Source of the DNA: Leptolyngbyaceae cyanobacterium M33_DOE_097
Lineage (GTDB): Bacteria; Cyanobacteriota; Cyanobacteriia; Leptolyngbyales; Leptolyngbyaceae
Assembly (NCBI GenBank): GCA_015296075.1
Contig: DVDV01000232.1
Span: 1 to 64,000, forward strand
Length of the DNA: 64,000 nt
Direction: 5' to 3'
The notes under the pieces were generated by a model. The model searched no databases, was not told the origin of the DNA, and saw only the letters and a list, made by a program, of their open reading frames with translations. Both the position numbers and the translations under genes were made by a program. Below, in pieces: positions 764-13,668 of this stretch. Each line of letters begins with the position of its first letter. The first letter of the stretch is position 1.

Positions 764-1783
764 TCAACTCACTGCACTGTAGGGAAGATAGAGAACGTGG
801 GGCGGGTTTGCTTTACCTATTGGTTTTTGCTCTCCTAATTTACGCTTTTGATTTTCAAGCCAAATGACAACTTCAGTATTATCTGGGTAATACTGTTGAA
901 CAAAGCTGATAAAGTTGTCGATTGTACATTCCTTGTTAGTGCCACCCATATACTCCGAGTGGAATTGATCATGAACCTCACAAGAAATAGTAATTAAGTT
1001 ATCGATTGAGTCTGCAAGGATAGGGTACTTATTACATGAGTACAAATGATGGGCTGCCATCCTAGCTGGCTCAACATAGTTACCTTCACGCTTTGTAACT
1101 TGGCAAATACTTTTATCTCTTCTTTTTGTACTCTTCTTAGCAGATTCAATCTGTTTTTCTCGCTGTTTAAGCTGTGAAACAATATCATCAATTTGCGGTT
1201 TTATTACCTCGCCTACATCCTTACACTCTGCTTTCCGGTTTTTCTTCGTTAACCGCTCTTCAAAAGCTTTGGAGAGCTTGATAATACCAGCAAGTGAAAA
1301 GTACAGTCCTTGATCTGGGAAATCCTCAAAATCTTGCCCTTTTATCAAAGGGTAATCTGCTTTTTGTGTATGTTCAGCCATTTTTGACAGGTAGTCAGAA
1401 CGAGTCCCAAAGATAGCAACAGCGTCTGATCTTGAAATCCAAAATTGATCATTTCTCTTAATTAAGGATGAGCAGTTTTCAAGAATCTTTCTTCTAACAA
1501 AGCTCTTACGGATTTTCTCATTAGTATGAAAAATAAACTCCTTGATTCTGTTCCAAAACCCCTTATATTTAGTGGTTTCTAAATATCGAGCAATCGTATA
1601 CGCTCCAGATTCTGTATATTCTCTTAGACCGCTACCACTAACAACCCGATAATCTTTTCCTTCTGCCAATTCCCATTCATCATCTGGGATAGAGTCAAAA
1701 AACTTCTCGACCTGTATTAATTCCTCGCCACTAATGTTGAGAGTTTTGATCAACTCTCTACTAGGAATATAAATCTTTGCCAT
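764..1783 (-). CDS. HNH-nuclease-like protein with duplicated N-terminal module
   Basis: This 339-residue soluble protein is not a family I can name. The C-terminal part (about 225-280) has an HNH-like arrangement: C227, H245/H246 in AAHHLYS, N262 in DSIDNLITI and H271 with H275 in EVHDQFH, which is consistent with a beta-beta-alpha-metal nuclease. Residues 196-225 are lysine-rich and probably helical. The first 180 residues appear to hold two related modules: EGKDYRVV...SGAYTIARYLE (41-69) and KGQDFEDF...YFSLAGIIKLSKAFE (148-175). This pattern recalls phage antirepressor or BRO-type DNA-binding modules, but that is inference. The ATG lies 2 nt after the stop of the upstream J-domain gene, so the two are co-transcribed. 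The gene is more AT-rich than the core genes and has no HIP1 site. Confidence 0.7.
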   Translation of the reverse strand: MAKIYIPSRELIKTLNISGEELIQVEKFFDSIPDDEWELAEGKDYRVVSGSGLREYTESGAYTIARYLETTKYKGFWNRIKEFIFHTNEKIRKSFVRRKILENCSSLIKRNDQFWISRSDAVAIFGTRSDYLSKMAEHTQKADYPLIKGQDFEDFPDQGLYFSLAGIIKLSKAFEERLTKKNRKAECKDVGEVIKPQIDDIVSQLKQREKQIESAKKSTKRRDKSICQVTKREGNYVEPARMAAHHLYSCNKYPILADSIDNLITISCEVHDQFHSEYMGGTNKECTIDNFISFVQQYYPDNTEVVIWLENQKRKLGEQKPIGKANPPHVLYLPYSAVS

Positions 1784-1785
1784 AT

Positions 1786-2367
1786 TTAGAACTTGTAGGT
1801 GAGACTTTTGTAGAACGTATTCAAGCGGTCAAAGATTCTCGCATCTCCAGTTGTAGGATTATCTGGATGATAAGTTTTGCTCAATTCTCGGTAAGCAGAT
1901 TTCACATCTTCATCAGTTGCTTCTTTAGGATCTAAACCAAATATCTTCCAAGGCAGATCGTAGTTAAAGATATTGATTCCATTAATGCAACCGTAACCTT
2001 CCTCCCCTTCTTCACCAGGGAGAATACCAATCACTTTTCGATAAACTGCTTCCCAACCAGGCTTCTTACTTAGATCAAGGTTTTCTATCCCAGAAGTAGC
2101 CATTTGGAAAGCATCTGATTGCTTCAACTCTTTTGTATCAACCACTTTAAAATGACTATAAACAGCCTCTTTTATTTGAGGTAACGATAACTTTTTAACC
2201 TTGGCTACTTTAGGCTTAGTCTCTTTCTTCGGTTTTGGATCTTTCTTCTTGTAATTTGCAATTACAAACTGGGCAAACTCTTCAAGTTCAGATACACTAA
2301 AACCACGTAGTTCTACAAGTCGAGAGATCTCGTCCTGCACAACTTTGTTTAGGGACGCTGGAGGCAT
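1786..2367 (-). CDS. J-domain (DnaJ-like) protein of a two-gene unit
   Basis: The C-terminal 58 residues form a J-domain: a helix I region at PWKIFGLDP, a helix II region at DEDVKSAYRELSKTY, the diagnostic HPD in YHPDN, and helix III at RIFDRLNTFYKSL. It ends directly after the J-domain, with no Gly/Phe or zinc-finger regions, so it is a class III-type co-chaperone that would recruit Hsp70 to a specific client. The N-terminal region (about 1-45) has a helical segment ending SVSELEEFAQFVIANYKKK, reminiscent of H-NS-like nucleoid proteins. A Lys/Pro-rich linker (about 42-60) follows, then a middle region of unknown fold. The ATG at 2367 is preferred because AGGGG lies 6 nt upstream; a TTG two codons earlier is the alternative. 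It is the first gene of the pair, and the HNH-like protein follows after 2 nt. Confidence 0.75.
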   Translation of the reverse strand: MPPASLNKVVQDEISRLVELRGFSVSELEEFAQFVIANYKKKDPKPKKETKPKVAKVKKLSLPQIKEAVYSHFKVVDTKELKQSDAFQMATSGIENLDLSKKPGWEAVYRKVIGILPGEEGEEGYGCINGINIFNYDLPWKIFGLDPKEATDEDVKSAYRELSKTYHPDNPTTGDARIFDRLNTFYKSLTYKF

Positions 2368-2838
2368 AATCAACCCCTATGGTAGATATTTCTTTAAGCA
2401 CTTTATGAGCAAATTTTAGGAGTGTTCTTGCTCAGTGCTGATTGTAGAATTCCCACTTATCGTGAAAATCAAACGAGATTTGGATTACCCATCACACAAG
2501 GAACTTCTCACAGCCACATCCATCATTACCTGTGAAAATTTCTTCAACAGGGAACTTCATCAAAAAGATCTATTAAATAAGGCTTTTTAGAAGATCTTGA
2601 AAGTTCTTAGAAGTGCAAACTTGATGGATCAGTTGTTAGTTCAAAAATACTATTTATCGACTTTCAGTTATAAAAGCATCGTTTGATATGGCTTCTAACT
2701 GCTTTCAACACTTGGAGATAGAGTGAACAACAGACTCATAACATAGTCCTCAGTCCTTCTCAGGTATCCTTCAGGTTTGAACCAGTCTATCGTGCAGTAG
2801 AGACTTACTAGTTTTGAATTACTACAAGCCGAATAACA
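2368..2838. other. Non-coding spacer upstream of the J-domain gene
   Basis: About 470 bp of AT-rich sequence with no convincing ORF. It should hold the promoter of the J-domain/HNH unit. Visible items are the right direct-repeat copy at 2441-2465, the separated pair TCACAG/CTGTGA at about 2509-2545, and several short GAACTTC/AGTTCTT words between 2500 and 2615 that might be an operator. No tRNA 3'-end duplicate was seen. Confidence 0.4.
2441..2465. repeat. Right copy of imperfect direct repeat flanking the J-domain/HNH unit
   Basis: This copy shares the 11-bp TAGAATTCCCA core, the preceding ATTG and the following TC-A/G-TGA with the left copy at 673-697. It lies 74 bp beyond the start codon of the first gene, so the pair of repeats encloses both genes and nothing else. 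Confidence 0.4.
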
Positions 2839-8041: not shown

Positions 8042-8530
8042 ATGGCAACTCAAGCTCCCATGCCGATCAACATCGGGATTAACGAAACCGACCGTAAAGA
8101 AATCGCGGCGGGCTTATCTCGTTTACTGGCCGATACTTACACGCTGTATCTCAAAACTCACAACTTCCATTGGAACGTGACAGGCCCAATGTTCCAAACG
8201 TTGCACCTGATGTTTGAGCAACAGTACACCGAGCTGTCAACCGCTGTTGACGAAATTGCTGAGCGCATTCGAGCATTGGGCTTTCCGGCTCCTGGCACTT
8301 ACTCTGAATATGCCAAGCTCACCTCCATTCCCGAAGCAGAAGGCGTGCCTGCCGCTCAAGACATGATCAAGCAACTCGTTGAAGGGCAAGAAACTGTGGC
8401 GCGCACCGCTCGTGAAGTGTTTCCTGCCGCAGAACGGGCCAACGATGAACCGACCGCCGACCTGTTGACGCAACGGATGCAACTCCACGAAAAAACCGCG
8501 TGGATGCTGCGCAGTCTGTTAGAAGCATAA
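8042..8530 (+). CDS. dps: Dps-family ferritin-like protein
   Basis: This 162-residue four-helix-bundle protein would assemble as a 12-mer that oxidises Fe2+ with H2O2 and stores iron. The family block runs from [12 protein letters not shown] (H40, H43) through [12 protein letters not shown] to [15 protein letters not shown] (D70, E74), which supplies the inter-subunit ferroxidase centre. A very strong Shine-Dalgarno (GGAGG at about 8030) precedes the ATG. The short N-terminus has no obvious Lys/Arg-rich DNA-binding tail, so DNA compaction is doubtful. The nearest upstream gene is srxA. Confidence 0.93.
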
Positions 8531-8602: not shown

Positions 8603-9232
8603 ATGAGTTTATCTCCCCAAACGAAAGACACCCCACCGTTGCGTCAAATGATGCAGCGAGCGGGGTTTTCTAGCTTTAAAGCCCTGCGCCAGAAAGCCAA
8701 CGTCTCGAAAACCGCGATCGCCCATTTACGTAAGGGACAAATTGCCCGTCTGCGCGTCGAGACACTACTGGCTCTGAGTCAGGCGCTGCAAGTCCCGATT
8801 AACGAGCTGCTCAATTTACCAGCCCAAGCCGCGGAGCCACTCCCCTCTACAGCGCCTAGCCTGGAGGAATATCAACGCCTCGAACAACAATTAGTCGAAC
8901 AACGCGAAAACCTGCGCCAGGAGTTTCAGCAAGAAAGCCTGCAAATTCTAGAATCCTTGCTGCTCCAGCTCCCAACTGCGGCTCATGCGGCTCAACAAAA
9001 TCCCCAGGCCCCAGCAGTGAAACTGCTGCCCCTGTTACGCCCGATCGACCGCTTACTCGAAAGTTGGGGAATTGAGGCGATCGCCCCCGTCGGAACCGAG
9101 TTAGCTTTTGACCCGCATCTGCATCAATTGATGGAGGGCAGCGCCGACCCCGGCGATCGCGTGCGAGTCCGCTATACCGGATATCGCCAGGGTGAAAAGT
9201 TGCTCTACCGCGCCAAAGTGAGCCGAGTTTGA
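8603..9232 (+). CDS. HTH (XRE-type) protein fused to a GrpE-like C-terminal domain
   Basis: A 209-residue protein. Residues 14-65 look like a helix-turn-helix: FSSFKALRQKANVSKTAIAH, then RKGQIARLRVETLLALSQAL. A coiled coil (about 84-120, rich in Gln and Glu) leads to a C-terminal domain (about 140-207) ending WGIEAIAPVGTELAFDPHLH then DPGDRVRVRYTGYRQGEKLLYRAKV. This matches the beta-domain of GrpE, the Hsp70 nucleotide-exchange factor (compare G-x-P-FDPxxHEA...GY). The layout suggests a DNA-binding or self-recognising regulator with an Hsp70-interacting end; the function is inferred only. It lies 70 nt after dps. Confidence 0.75.
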   Translation: MSLSPQTKDTPPLRQMMQRAGFSSFKALRQKANVSKTAIAHLRKGQIARLRVETLLALSQALQVPINELLNLPAQAAEPLPSTAPSLEEYQRLEQQLVEQRENLRQEFQQESLQILESLLLQLPTAAHAAQQNPQAPAVKLLPLLRPIDRLLESWGIEAIAPVGTELAFDPHLHQLMEGSADPGDRVRVRYTGYRQGEKLLYRAKVSRV

Positions 9233-9288
9233 GCCGCGTTACTCTTTAATCCGTGTTTAACGGCTGTATCCTGCTGGATTGACCCCGG

Positions 9289-10185
9289 TTAAATCGGTGG
9301 CAGACCCGCCAGATCAAGAATTTTGGGAATCAGATCCTCGCGTTTCACTGCCATCATGTGAACGCCCTGGCAGAGGTCACGCGCCAGTCGTACTTGCTCA
9401 GCCGCGATCACCATGCCCTCTTGGAGTGGGTCAGACGCCCGTTCTAACCGCTCAATAATGGCATCGGGAATATGGACTCCCGGCACATTGCGGCGAATGA
9501 ACAGCGCATTTTTGGCCGACTTTAGGAGGAAAATACCTGCCAGAATGGGCTTATCGCATCCGGTAGCGATTTGGGTCATAAATTTTTCGAGCTTGTCAAA
9601 GTCAGAAATTAACTGGCTTTGAAAAAATTGTGCCCCAGCGGTTAGCTTGCGCTCAAATCGCCGTTGTAACCCAGACCAACTGGGACATTGGGGGTCAATC
9701 GCCGCACCAACAAATAACTCCGTTGCACCATCTGTTAAGGGCTTATCGTTAAAGTCAAAGCCCGCATTGAGTTTACCAATCAGTTGCAACAGACGCACTG
9801 ATTCAACATCAAATACTGAACGGGCATTGGGATGATCGCCTGCCTTGAGTGGGTCACCCGTCAGCGCTAAAACGTTGCGAATACCTAACGCCTGCGCCCC
9901 CATTAAATCGGCTTGTAGTCCTACCACATTGCGATCGCGGCAGGCCACCTGACAGATCGGCTCAATCCCCTGATGCAGCAAAATCACTGACGCCGCTAGA
10001 GACGACATCCGCAAAACGGCTCGGCTTCCATCCGTGATGTTGACAGCATGTACACGTCCTTTCAAAGTTTCTGCCATGCGAATCATATGGGTTGGGTCGC
10101 CCCCTTTGGGTGGTGCCACCTCAGCCGTAATGAGAAACTCGCCGGACTGAATCGCTGTTTGAAATCGGTTGGGAGCAAAAACCAT
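9289..10185 (-). CDS. metF: Methylenetetrahydrofolate reductase family protein
   Basis: This 298-residue TIM-barrel flavoprotein would reduce 5,10-methylene-THF to 5-methyl-THF for methionine synthesis. It shows FLITAEVAPPKGGDP (catalytic Glu in the first strand), VNITDG, NVLALTGDP (FAD/folate site), and QFFQSQLISDFDKLEKFM. The length is close to the single-domain bacterial enzyme. The sequence belongs to the divergent MetF-like branch common in cyanobacteria, so reductant and exact substrate are inferred. The nearest gene on the same strand is trpS upstream, separated by about 140 bp. Confidence 0.85.
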   Translation of the reverse strand: MVFAPNRFQTAIQSGEFLITAEVAPPKGGDPTHMIRMAETLKGRVHAVNITDGSRAVLRMSSLAASVILLHQGIEPICQVACRDRNVVGLQADLMGAQALGIRNVLALTGDPLKAGDHPNARSVFDVESVRLLQLIGKLNAGFDFNDKPLTDGATELFVGAAIDPQCPSWSGLQRRFERKLTAGAQFFQSQLISDFDKLEKFMTQIATGCDKPILAGIFLLKSAKNALFIRRNVPGVHIPDAIIERLERASDPLQEGMVIAAEQVRLARDLCQGVHMMAVKREDLIPKILDLAGLPPI

Positions 10186-10328
10186 CTTTAAAGGAAATAA
10201 ATATCAAAAGTTTAAGACTTAATTAGCACTTATCTAGCTTCGCATGGCAGTTGTCACATTTCACCGAATTCAAAGTTTCAGTGAAGTGTGATGCAGGCAT
10301 TTGCTCGCTCGATCGCAAAGTTTAGGTC

Positions 10329-11339
10329 TTACAGTGGCAAGAGAAAGCCCAGCGCCTTTCTCACCCGGTTTAGGGTGCGGTTCGCAATTTCATTCGCTTT
10401 TTGGCCACCCTCGCGCAAGACCGAATCCAAATAAGCCCGGTCATCCACAATTTCTTTGTAGCGTTGTTGAATCGGCTGCAAATGAGCGATCGCGGCTTCC
10501 GTCAACAGGGGCTTAAACTGACCCCACCCCATGTCTTGACACTCTTCGATCACGTCGTCTTTGGACTTACCGGAGAACAGCATGTAAAGCGTTAGAAGGT
10601 TGGTACATTCAGGCCGCTCTGGATTACCAAACTCCAGTCCCTTAATCGGGTCGGTCTTACACTTCTTGACTTTTTGCTGAATCATTTCAGGCGAATCAAG
10701 TACATTAATCCGGCTGAGGTCAGACGGGTCTGACTTCGACATTTTCTTGCTGCCATCGGTCAAGCTCATAACCCGCGCACCCTCCGCCCGAATTAGCGGC
10801 TCTGGACGCTTTAAGACTAGCTCTTTTGGGGTTCCAAACTGGTGATTGACCCGATCCACAATGTCGCGAGTCAGCTCTAAGTGCTGTTTTTGGTCTTCGC
10901 CAACAGGCACCTTATCGGCATCGTAAAGCAGGATATCTGACGACATCAGCACTGGATAGTCAAGCAGCCCCACACCCACGTTTTCGCCCTGTTTGACCGC
11001 TTTCTCTTTGAACTGGATCATGTCTGTCAGCCAGTTCATGGGGATGAGGCAATTTAATAACCAGGTTAGCTCACTGTGAGCCGACACATGGGACTGCACA
11101 AAAATCGTTGAACAGGAGAGATCAATGCCACAGGCCAGGTAAAGCGCCGCGATCGTGTACGTGTCTTGAGCCAGAGTTGCCGGGTTATGAGGCACTGTAA
11201 TCGCGTGCAGGTCAACCACACAAAAAAGGTTGTCGTATTCGTACTGCCCTTGAACCCAGTTACGAATTGCCCCAAAGTAGTTACCCACATGCAAACTACC
11301 CGTTGGCTGAACTCCTGAAAGAATGCGCTGTTTTGCCAT
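10329..11339 (-). CDS. trpS: Tryptophanyl-tRNA synthetase
   Basis: This 336-residue class I aminoacyl-tRNA synthetase charges tRNA-Trp. The HIGH-like signature is in GVQPTGSLHVGNYFGA, and the KMSKS loop is GSKKMSKSDPSD. The specificity region MSSDILLYDADKVPVGEDQK is typical. I prefer the ATG at 11339 (MAKQRILSG), which starts directly at the first conserved strand; an ATG at 11357 would add six residues. The length matches bacterial TrpRS. Confidence 0.96.
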   Translation of the reverse strand: MAKQRILSGVQPTGSLHVGNYFGAIRNWVQGQYEYDNLFCVVDLHAITVPHNPATLAQDTYTIAALYLACGIDLSCSTIFVQSHVSAHSELTWLLNCLIPMNWLTDMIQFKEKAVKQGENVGVGLLDYPVLMSSDILLYDADKVPVGEDQKQHLELTRDIVDRVNHQFGTPKELVLKRPEPLIRAEGARVMSLTDGSKKMSKSDPSDLSRINVLDSPEMIQQKVKKCKTDPIKGLEFGNPERPECTNLLTLYMLFSGKSKDDVIEECQDMGWGQFKPLLTEAAIAHLQPIQQRYKEIVDDRAYLDSVLREGGQKANEIANRTLNRVRKALGFLLPL

Positions 11340-11448
11340 ACCTGTGAGATCGCTCATCCGCCCTAATCAAAATTATTGAACTATAATTAAAGAATGTAAC
11401 AGATTGTTAACAGCAATCTGTCAAGTCGCTCTCTCATCGATGTTTATT

Positions 11449-11748
11449 ATGACGTACTCTTCCACTCAAAATCCGGTTGAAGCGTTGGGTAATGCCTTGA
11501 ACCTGGCTCAAGAGATCAGGCAGCAGGCCGAGGCAACCGAGCAATTTACCTCGATTCTGGCTCAAGTTCCCCAAACTCCCGAAACGGCTGAGTTACTCAC
11601 TCTTCTTTGGAATGAAGTGTTATCAGCTCGTCGTTCTGCAGCTTTTTGGCAACAGCTGAGCGACATCGAAAAACACATGACCGACAAGCTGGCAGCCAAC
11701 CACTTCCAACTCCAGCAAAATTACTTGCGCCTCATGCAAGAACAGTAA
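11449..11748 (+). CDS. Small helical protein, function unknown
   Basis: A 99-residue acidic protein with no membrane segment. The composition (Ala, Gln, Leu, Glu) suggests several amphipathic helices. I do not recognise a family. The ATG at 11449 is preferred over an in-frame TTG at 11404 and an ATG at 11440. It lies divergent from trpS, 110 bp away, and convergent with the 5-FCL gene, whose stop lies 10 bp downstream. Confidence 0.6.
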   Translation: MTYSSTQNPVEALGNALNLAQEIRQQAEATEQFTSILAQVPQTPETAELLTLLWNEVLSARRSAAFWQQLSDIEKHMTDKLAANHFQLQQNYLRLMQEQ

Positions 11749-11758
11749 AAGCTTTGGC

Positions 11759-12331
11759 TTATATCGTTTCAGGCTGAGTTGCAATCAAACCTGACTCAGT
11801 ACAAACGTGTGACAACGGCTGATCCCAGAGATCGTTTGGTAGCACTGACACCACAGCAAAGTCAAACAAAATCGCGATCGCTGGGATCTTTGCCCACTCT
11901 GGTTGACTTAACAGACGGTCATAAAATCCGCCACCATAGCCCAAACGATAGCCCCGGCGATCGCACCCAACCGCCGGAATTAGCAGCAGATCGACTTGCT
12001 GCGGCTGCAAAATAGGACACTCTGGCGGTGGCTCCAAAATGCCAAATTGCCCCGGTTGTAAGGGTGGGCTGGTGTCAGGTGCCCAGTGATGCCAGACCAA
12101 CGTTTTTTCTAAACACCGTGATAGCCCCCAGGTTTTGGGTTGAGTCAGCAACGGGCTTAAATCGGGTTCTTGCCGCACACTGCAATAGGTTAAAACGGTC
12201 TGCGCCTGCTGAAACAAAGGGAACTCACACAGATGATGACACAGGCGATCGCTCTTGACTTGCCACTCCTCACGAGTGAGTTGCGATCGCTGGAGCAGCA
12301 ATGTTTTACGCAATTCCTTCTTCGTTACCAT
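11759..12331 (-). CDS. 5-formyltetrahydrofolate cyclo-ligase
   Basis: This 190-residue enzyme uses ATP to convert 5-formyl-THF to 5,10-methenyl-THF, recycling folate. Diagnostic features are KKELRKTLLLQRSQL at the N-terminus, the FGILEPP loop, and the GCDRRGYRLGYGGGFYDRLL block that binds ATP and substrate. The ATG at 12331 fits the family start; an in-frame TTG at 12361 is less likely. With the metF-like gene it represents one-carbon metabolism in this part of the window. Confidence 0.93.
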   Translation of the reverse strand: MVTKKELRKTLLLQRSQLTREEWQVKSDRLCHHLCEFPLFQQAQTVLTYCSVRQEPDLSPLLTQPKTWGLSRCLEKTLVWHHWAPDTSPPLQPGQFGILEPPPECPILQPQQVDLLLIPAVGCDRRGYRLGYGGGFYDRLLSQPEWAKIPAIAILFDFAVVSVLPNDLWDQPLSHVCTESGLIATQPETI

Positions 12332-12546
12332 TCGCGACCCAGTCAACAGAACATCAAGCAACCTACCAGAGAAGCCGTAGGTTCAATTTCATAGGGGGGT
12401 AGGGGTTTCCTCAAATCGGCTTGACCTCTCATTCATTACCCAATGTAAACGGTTGATGTCTGGATGCTTAAGATCTCCTGGCACAAATGCGCAGTTCCCT
12501 AAGATTGAGGTAGAGTTTTGCCTTAGGTGCCTGCTGCCCAAAAACA

Positions 12547-13668
12547 ATGCGATCGCTGCTTTCTTCTTTTCGGGGTTTACCCTTTGACCCCACATTGCCA
12601 CGCCCCTACTATTTAGTTGAGCCGTTCCATCGGTTTCGCTTCATTGTGCTGTACATGCTGGCAACAGGTATTGGCTGGTTTTTGGTCGGCACGGCGATGC
12701 GTCCGCTTGAAGCATCTGAGATACCAACTTTTTTGCAAAGCAGCAGTTTGTTTGGTGCTTTTGTCGGTGGAATTATCGCAGGCATGATGGTGGGAGCTTT
12801 GCAGTGGCTCGTTTTGCGGCGGGTCATGCCTGACTGGTTGTGGATTTTGACCAATGTGGCTGGCTATGCGGTTACGATGACAGCTATTCAAGCATGGCAA
12901 CGGTGGCTGCAAACCATTGGGGTACAGCGGTTCGCAACGACACCTCCCTGGGCATTTTTGCTGCTATCCATTTTGGTTACGATGGTCTGCACACTCTGGT
13001 TGGGATTGTTGCAATGGCTGCTAATACGCAATTATGCTCGACCCAGTTGGGGTTGGTTGTTGACGCCCGCGATCGCCATTGCCATTGCCTCTTCTCTCGT
13101 CGGAATTCACCAATTCCTGGCGCAGGCAGGCGTGCGAGTGACTCTCCAAGTTGGCGTGTTAGCAGCAGGCGTTTTAGGGTTGACTCAAGCGATCGCCTTC
13201 TGTGTTTTGCATCAGCGAGCCAGCGATCGTCCGGCAATTCGAGATCTGGCTTTACGGAATGCCCCTTTTATTACAGAGCCTCGCCAGATTCGGCGCATGA
13301 CTCGGCGGTTACTCAACCAGATCCACCGCAACTGGAAAGGGGATGTCATGTGTGAGCAGGCGGTTCCTTACCTTGTAGGAGTGACCGCATCTGGTGCGAT
13401 CGCGGCTTACGAGCCAGAACGTCCGGTTTCGGCTGCCTACCTAGAGCATACACCTCTACCTGAGATGCTCACCCCGTCACCACCCAACGCAGCCTTGCCA
13501 GCCCTCGCGCGGCTCCAGGTAACGTTTTTGCCATCAGGGCAGGTCACTGTTTATAGTTGGCAGGGCGCATCACTGCTGGATCTAGCCTGGAAGTTTTTGC
13601 TTGCCGTCATTGTCTTAAGCATTGTTACGGGCAGTTTGCGCTACACAATGCCGTTTTTGGGTCAGTGA
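12547..13668 (+). CDS. Polytopic membrane protein, function unknown
   Basis: A 373-residue protein. After a cytoplasmic start it has about six hydrophobic helices between residues 30 and 225 (for example [35 protein letters not shown] and [18 protein letters not shown]). A soluble domain of about 130 residues follows, and a final helix lies near the C-terminus ([13 protein letters not shown]). Two segments ([10 protein letters not shown] and [10 protein letters not shown]) share a LQWL(L/V)-R pattern, so the membrane part may be an internal duplication. No catalytic motif is visible. cpcS follows, with its start 56 bp beyond this stop codon. Confidence 0.75.

Follow-up and report, generated by a model that had tools for sequence, protein, structure and literature searches.

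Scattered cyanobacterial genomes carry a conserved, chromosomal two-gene unit in which a J-domain protein is encoded directly upstream of a predicted HNH nuclease, and this unit moves between genomes on its own. We characterized it starting from one member located in a stretch of 64,000 nucleotides from a Leptolyngbyaceae cyanobacterium (contig DVDV01000232.1; this whole stretch is referred to as the window). Such a J-HNH cassette appears never to have been described before; its probable role is in defence or self-poisoning.

Organization of the gene pair

Both open reading frames are found on the minus strand at the coordinates reported in the initial annotation, with the J gene preceding the HNH gene (Table 1); a spacer of 2 nt (AT) separates the stop codon of J from the ATG of HNH. 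The J gene starts with TTG, and an in-frame ATG follows two codons further in, ending at 2367. The pair is indeed AT-rich, as had been noted, with a GC content of 0.38–0.39 compared to 0.49 for the whole window; across the family, the same holds relative to the pair's own flanking genes in 39/40 genera, by approximately 10 GC points.

The pair of tRNA genes described beside the two genes is present as well. As tRNAs occur within 9 kb of only 8/80 homologous loci, we regard this proximity as incidental, and a tRNA-associated island was rejected on the basis of these counts and of the lack of a direct repeat spanning the window pair (best score 25, corresponding to the shuffled level). Regarding the adjoining transposase gene of the initial annotation, an ORF exists at 13–651, but its match to the IS200/REP type is weak and below the cut-off (E = 0.009). 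To the left of the pair, the start of the window is also the end of the contig.

Table 1 Features of the J-HNH pair, in window coordinates
Feature	Position	Strand	Basis
J-domain protein gene, first of the pair; 195 aa	1786..2373	-	ORF; Pfam DnaJ E = 2.7e-8
Family-specific domain of the J protein, aa 62-139, WExLYRKFIGxLPxE...GCINGINIF	1957..2190	-	Column identity near that of the J domain
J domain, aa 140-195; helices II and III, YHPD, without helix IV	1789..1956	-	Pfam; AF2 helices of low confidence
HNH protein gene, second of the pair; 339 aa	764..1783	-	ORF; phrog_144 HNH
N-terminal module of the HNH protein, copy 1, aa 1-72	1568..1783	-	hhalign against copy 2
N-terminal module of the HNH protein, copy 2, aa 100-182	1238..1486	-	hhalign against copy 1
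HNH region C227...H245 H246-x15-N262-x8-H271-x3-H275...C286	926..1105	-	Spacing identical in 68 matching members

The J protein combines a J domain with a private domain

The Pfam DnaJ model matches residues 143–192 of the J protein above the cut-off, and the HPD motif is invariant among the J proteins of the family (74/74). The window protein stops about 27 residues past the HPD, as compared to 25–30 residues in the family. No G/F, zinc-finger or C-terminal DnaJ regions were detected with Pfam and NCBIfam, whose matches are confined to the J part, and CxxCxGxG is absent from every family member. The earlier description of a J-domain protein devoid of the usual DnaJ regions is thereby supported, and the sequence classifies the protein as a predicted class C J-domain co-chaperone. 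An AF2 model shows the J-domain helices, at low confidence.

The N-terminal two thirds of the protein constitute a family-specific domain, whose mean column identity is 0.48 versus 0.52 for the J domain. A profile search revealed no relatives of this domain in the PDB, and it was not found outside this J family in 390 genomes. We presume that it represents the client-binding part. In one genome (G370), a J-family protein truncated before the J domain adjoins a dnaK gene (L035:2970–3389).

The partner carries an HNH motif and duplicated N-terminal modules

The window HNH protein matches the "HNH endonuclease" model phrog_144 with E = 8.7e-5, and the same model is matched by 24/28 HNH homologues (best E = 5.3e-9). 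The residues H245, H246, N262 and H271 highlighted in the initial annotation turned out to be exactly conserved positions, to which C227, H275 and C286 can be added. These alignment columns are invariant or almost so. The motif C...HH-x15-N-x8-H-x3-H was present in 68/74 HNH proteins, with the same spacing in all 68; among the rest, some are interrupted by a contig end or an IS, and others show the change H271S (two members of one clade) or H275Y. Based on this motif, the protein is a putative member of the HNH endonuclease superfamily and a predicted nuclease. The AF2 model, built from a two-sequence alignment only, reached a pLDDT of 45 overall and about 25–47 over the motif, and the HNH profile found no relatives in the PDB.

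Profile comparison also confirmed the duplication of an N-terminal module: residues 1–75 aligned with residues 100–182 with an hhalign probability of 94.8 and E = 5e-8 (controls 0.3 and 1.2). These tandem modules probably bind DNA or another ligand; since Pfam Bro-N gave a weak match in just 2/28 family members, we treat a role in DNA binding as no more than a lead.

The two genes form a conserved, co-evolving unit

In a census of 390 cyanobacterial genomes of the class, 77 contained an HNH relative, and in 79 of the 85 places with a family J gene, an HNH relative follows immediately, with strand and gene order preserved. Homologues of both proteins therefore occur together in this genome search. 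The gap between the genes is exactly 2 nt in 24/76 re-called pairs. Across 80 loci from 43 genera (up to 18 kb each), the J and HNH families are the only ones to recur, the next commonest gene cluster reaching five genera, and the neighbours of the pair are unrelated between genera. Tree distances of the two proteins are correlated (0.77; as high in 0/999 permutations), showing that the J and HNH genes co-evolve. Both genes are under purifying selection, with dN/dS values between 0.03 and 0.26 for most close pairs and one value of 0.48. The suggestion of a candidate undescribed two-gene system is thus upheld by linkage, synteny-independent co-occurrence, co-evolution and the cassette mobility described below. 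A shared operator upstream of the J gene was rejected, as the motif content was only slightly above that of shuffled sequences.

Outside the class, a scan of the phylum yielded a single partial match to HNH and a single one to J, and nothing else. Beyond the phylum, the search was a peptide-pattern scan of genome contigs, able to pick up close relatives only.

Purifying selection on both genes would also be expected if the host used them as ordinary genes in DNA repair, competence or stress and the pair became patchy through repeated loss. This explanation agrees with the clustering of family labels on the tree (26 changes versus 45.9 in shuffles) and with the fixed genomic place of the pair within several genera. 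However, it is at odds with the low prevalence of the HNH relative among the genomes of the census, with the AT-richness relative to the flanks and with recent moves and swaps of the pair, and we consider it quite unlikely.

The pair moves alone and is swapped at fixed sites

Two species of one genus share a 1,877-bp block of 96% identity as the sole common DNA at unrelated sites, and this block spans the two genes together with about 190 bp ahead of them and 39 bp behind. J and HNH thus travel jointly between genomes, without other genes. In another genus, two genomes showed 88%-identical flanks of 8 kb on each side of the pair, between which lies a 2.2-kb J-HNH block in versions that are only about 30% identical; these versions have been swapped between matching flanks. 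No recombinase was found as part of the unit.

In seven loci, the pair lies between direct repeats of 26–55 bp that score 42–69 (255 control placements: 99th percentile 30.5, maximum 43). Flanking repeats in other genera differ in sequence and are unrelated, and most loci have none. At the gltD site, the repeat corresponds to the gltD 3' end, the upstream copy of which is intact beside the cassette. A second copy was present in 6/7 gltD loci with the pair and in 0/17 without it, three of these 17 being short stretches and the genomes being related.

The gltD 3' side is variable in genus g92 (L124–L143). In relatives, the site is occupied by BrnT, HicA, DUF2283, a different HNH gene or other genes, and BrnA was matched weakly; these genes replace or adjoin the J-HNH pair. 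In L138 and L139, the site contains an IS200/REP-type transposase similar to the ORF at 13–651 of the window, and a relative without the pair encodes a lone HNH protein of 233 aa there (L124:1176–1877; Pfam HNH E = 3e-6).

A cassette that moves alone, bounded by direct repeats in seven loci, could be a selfish element, all the more as the HNH fold is common among homing nucleases. In that case, the HNH protein would be a free-standing mobility endonuclease that cuts targets into which the 2-kb cassette is copied, while the J protein would aid its synthesis or turnover. However, the intact upstream gltD 3' end would be recut, direct repeats are not created by homing itself, and the repeats are unrelated in other genera or missing from most loci. 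Furthermore, no homologues were found in phages, plasmids or viral contigs, and the pair stands free between genes next to an intact target-like sequence, which differs from a homing gene. Overall, a selfish element seems improbable to us.

Genomic surroundings

The initial annotation had proposed a defence, phage-related or toxin-like module. A prophage or plasmid gene was rejected, because no relatives of the pair were found in phages, plasmids or IMG/VR; phages gave partial matches to HNH only or to J only. A general association with defence islands was also rejected based on neighbour scans, in which 150 near and 150 far (5–9 kb) neighbours showed no clear difference in defence genes and were mostly housekeeping genes; the gltD site and L093 are exceptions. 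The proposal is only partly supported: the pair is AT-rich, patchy and mobile, and it alternates with toxin-antitoxin modules at one site.

At L093, a 42-bp direct repeat (8195–8236 and 10406–10447) frames the pair directly behind a methylase-like gene. The surroundings include two methylase-like ORFs (one a fragment), an XRE-type regulator and a restriction-like ORF, as well as small genes resembling xisH/xisI by eye.

Comparison with known systems

PADLOC-DB 2023 contains no such system (best protein matches E = 0.012 and 0.028), no J-HNH system is present in NCBIfam or Pfam, and a search confined to open papers revealed no description of the pair. Most members match the HH...N...H motif of HNH endonucleases (phrog_144, phrog_119, Pfam HNH_2), but these models include neither the two N-terminal modules nor the J partner. 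In toxin-antitoxin-chaperone systems, a SecB-like chaperone guards an antitoxin. These systems likewise tie a chaperone function to a toxic partner in one operon, whereas the cassette encodes a J protein and no separate antitoxin.

The closest known dedicated operon J-protein is AtcJ of Shewanella oneidensis, encoded by the first gene of the conserved atcJABC operon for cold adaptation (PMC6715715). It is also a short J-protein without other DnaJ regions that is dedicated to an operon partner, but it binds the partner with a C-terminal extension of 21 aa located after the J domain, and the proteins encoded with it in the operon are reported to have no known function (PMC6715715). In the cassette, by contrast, a private domain precedes the C-terminal J domain, an HNH protein serves as the partner, and the unit is mobile.

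Among conflict systems using J proteins, bNACHT25 and the GAP1-N2 systems are closest. The anti-phage nuclease bNACHT25 needs DnaJ for its activation as well as J-domain contact with DnaK (PMC12169576), a dependence of defence nuclease action on DnaJ-DnaK contact that we infer for the cassette. However, bNACHT25 is a STAND NTPase using the general DnaJ of the host (PMC12169576), whereas the cassette encodes its own J protein next to the nuclease and lacks an NTPase. GAP1-N2 conflict systems contain J-domain and Hsp70 genes within conflict operons (Kaur et al. 2020, PMC7159879), but they are multi-gene, GTPase-centred systems with FNIII-DnaJ fusions and lack a two-gene J-HNH unit (PMC7159879).

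A possible chaperone-restrained nuclease

Most simply, the J protein would serve its HNH partner, because it has a private domain, is made just before the partner, and no intact HNH gene was seen without it. Considering the invariant HPD and the dedicated N-terminal domain, Hsp70 delivery to the nuclease is plausible.

In five cases the HNH gene is missing or broken while J is intact (G097, G328, L055, L075, L119); in turn, no complete family HNH gene without J was found in the 390 genomes where the flank was visible. Because of this asymmetry, we lean towards a J protein that restrains the nuclease, although the cases are few and the asymmetry also fits a longer gene taking more hits by chance. 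At L055, inserted DNA with transposase-like ORFs (9001–12703) splits the HNH gene downstream of an intact J gene. G097 and G328 carry orphan intact J genes without HNH (L079 and L082), which fall into the same clade as L084 and L089, where the HNH partner has the H271S change; in G328, a nucleotidyltransferase/HEPN-like pair is located 0.3 kb upstream of the orphan. Two of the other broken cases are frameshifts in draft genomes.

The leading explanation, though somewhat short of an even chance, is that the pair is a conflict module in which the J protein directs DnaK to the nuclease encoded beside it and thereby restrains this nuclease. The class C co-chaperone, translated just before the HNH-type nuclease, would bind it through the private N-terminal domain and recruit DnaK (Hsp70) through the HPD, so that the nuclease would be kept folded but restrained in a healthy cell; the first position of J in the gene order counts as support for this restraining step. 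Phage proteins or other stress would then occupy DnaK, and the freed nuclease would cut DNA, resulting in defence or self-poisoning. With DnaK recruited via the HPD, the module would read chaperone load, as proposed for bNACHT25. Against a conflict role, the near neighbours of the pair are no richer in defence genes than those at 5–9 kb, and its stable place in Synechococcus elongatus and several genera would fit a host function too.

The J protein and DnaK may instead activate the nuclease, with the HNH protein being a DNA-bound dimer or an aggregate-prone enzyme that is remodelled to its active form and then serves defence or DNA metabolism. This alternative follows the example of P1 RepA and the lambda origin complex, on which DnaK/DnaJ act in this way; it is consistent with the invariant HPD and the tight J-HNH coupling, with the published dependence of P1 and lambda on DnaJ/DnaK for replication (cited in PMC12169576) and with the activation of bNACHT25 by DnaJ (PMC12169576). 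However, it does not predict intact J genes outliving broken HNH genes, thin as this evidence is, and we rate it as unlikely.

If restraint by J and DnaK is the right reading, Hsp70 occupancy would be the infection sensor of a module carrying its own adaptor, and the guarding of chaperones by bacteria, as proposed in PMC12169576, would become testable in a two-gene system. The broader idea of a new class of conflict module, which would sense Hsp70 occupancy in infection, unleash an HNH nuclease and spread as a cassette of 2 kb that has no integrase and is framed by direct repeats, is tentative and somewhat doubtful. Even without the mechanism, a mobile cassette of co-chaperone and nuclease that is swapped at fixed sites resembles no described system that we found.

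A likely member in S. elongatus

One member appears to be carried by the model cyanobacterium S. elongatus: we take the chromosome of locus L102 to be that of S. elongatus PCC 6301, and the gene order agrees. Because nblR is Synpcc7942_2305 and a peroxidase is Synpcc7942_2309 (PMC12016511), we infer that J corresponds to Synpcc7942_2306 and HNH to Synpcc7942_2307, two tags of which no mention was found in open papers. At L102, the pair is flanked by the gene for an NblR-like response regulator and by gcvT, and a peroxiredoxin gene lies farther out.
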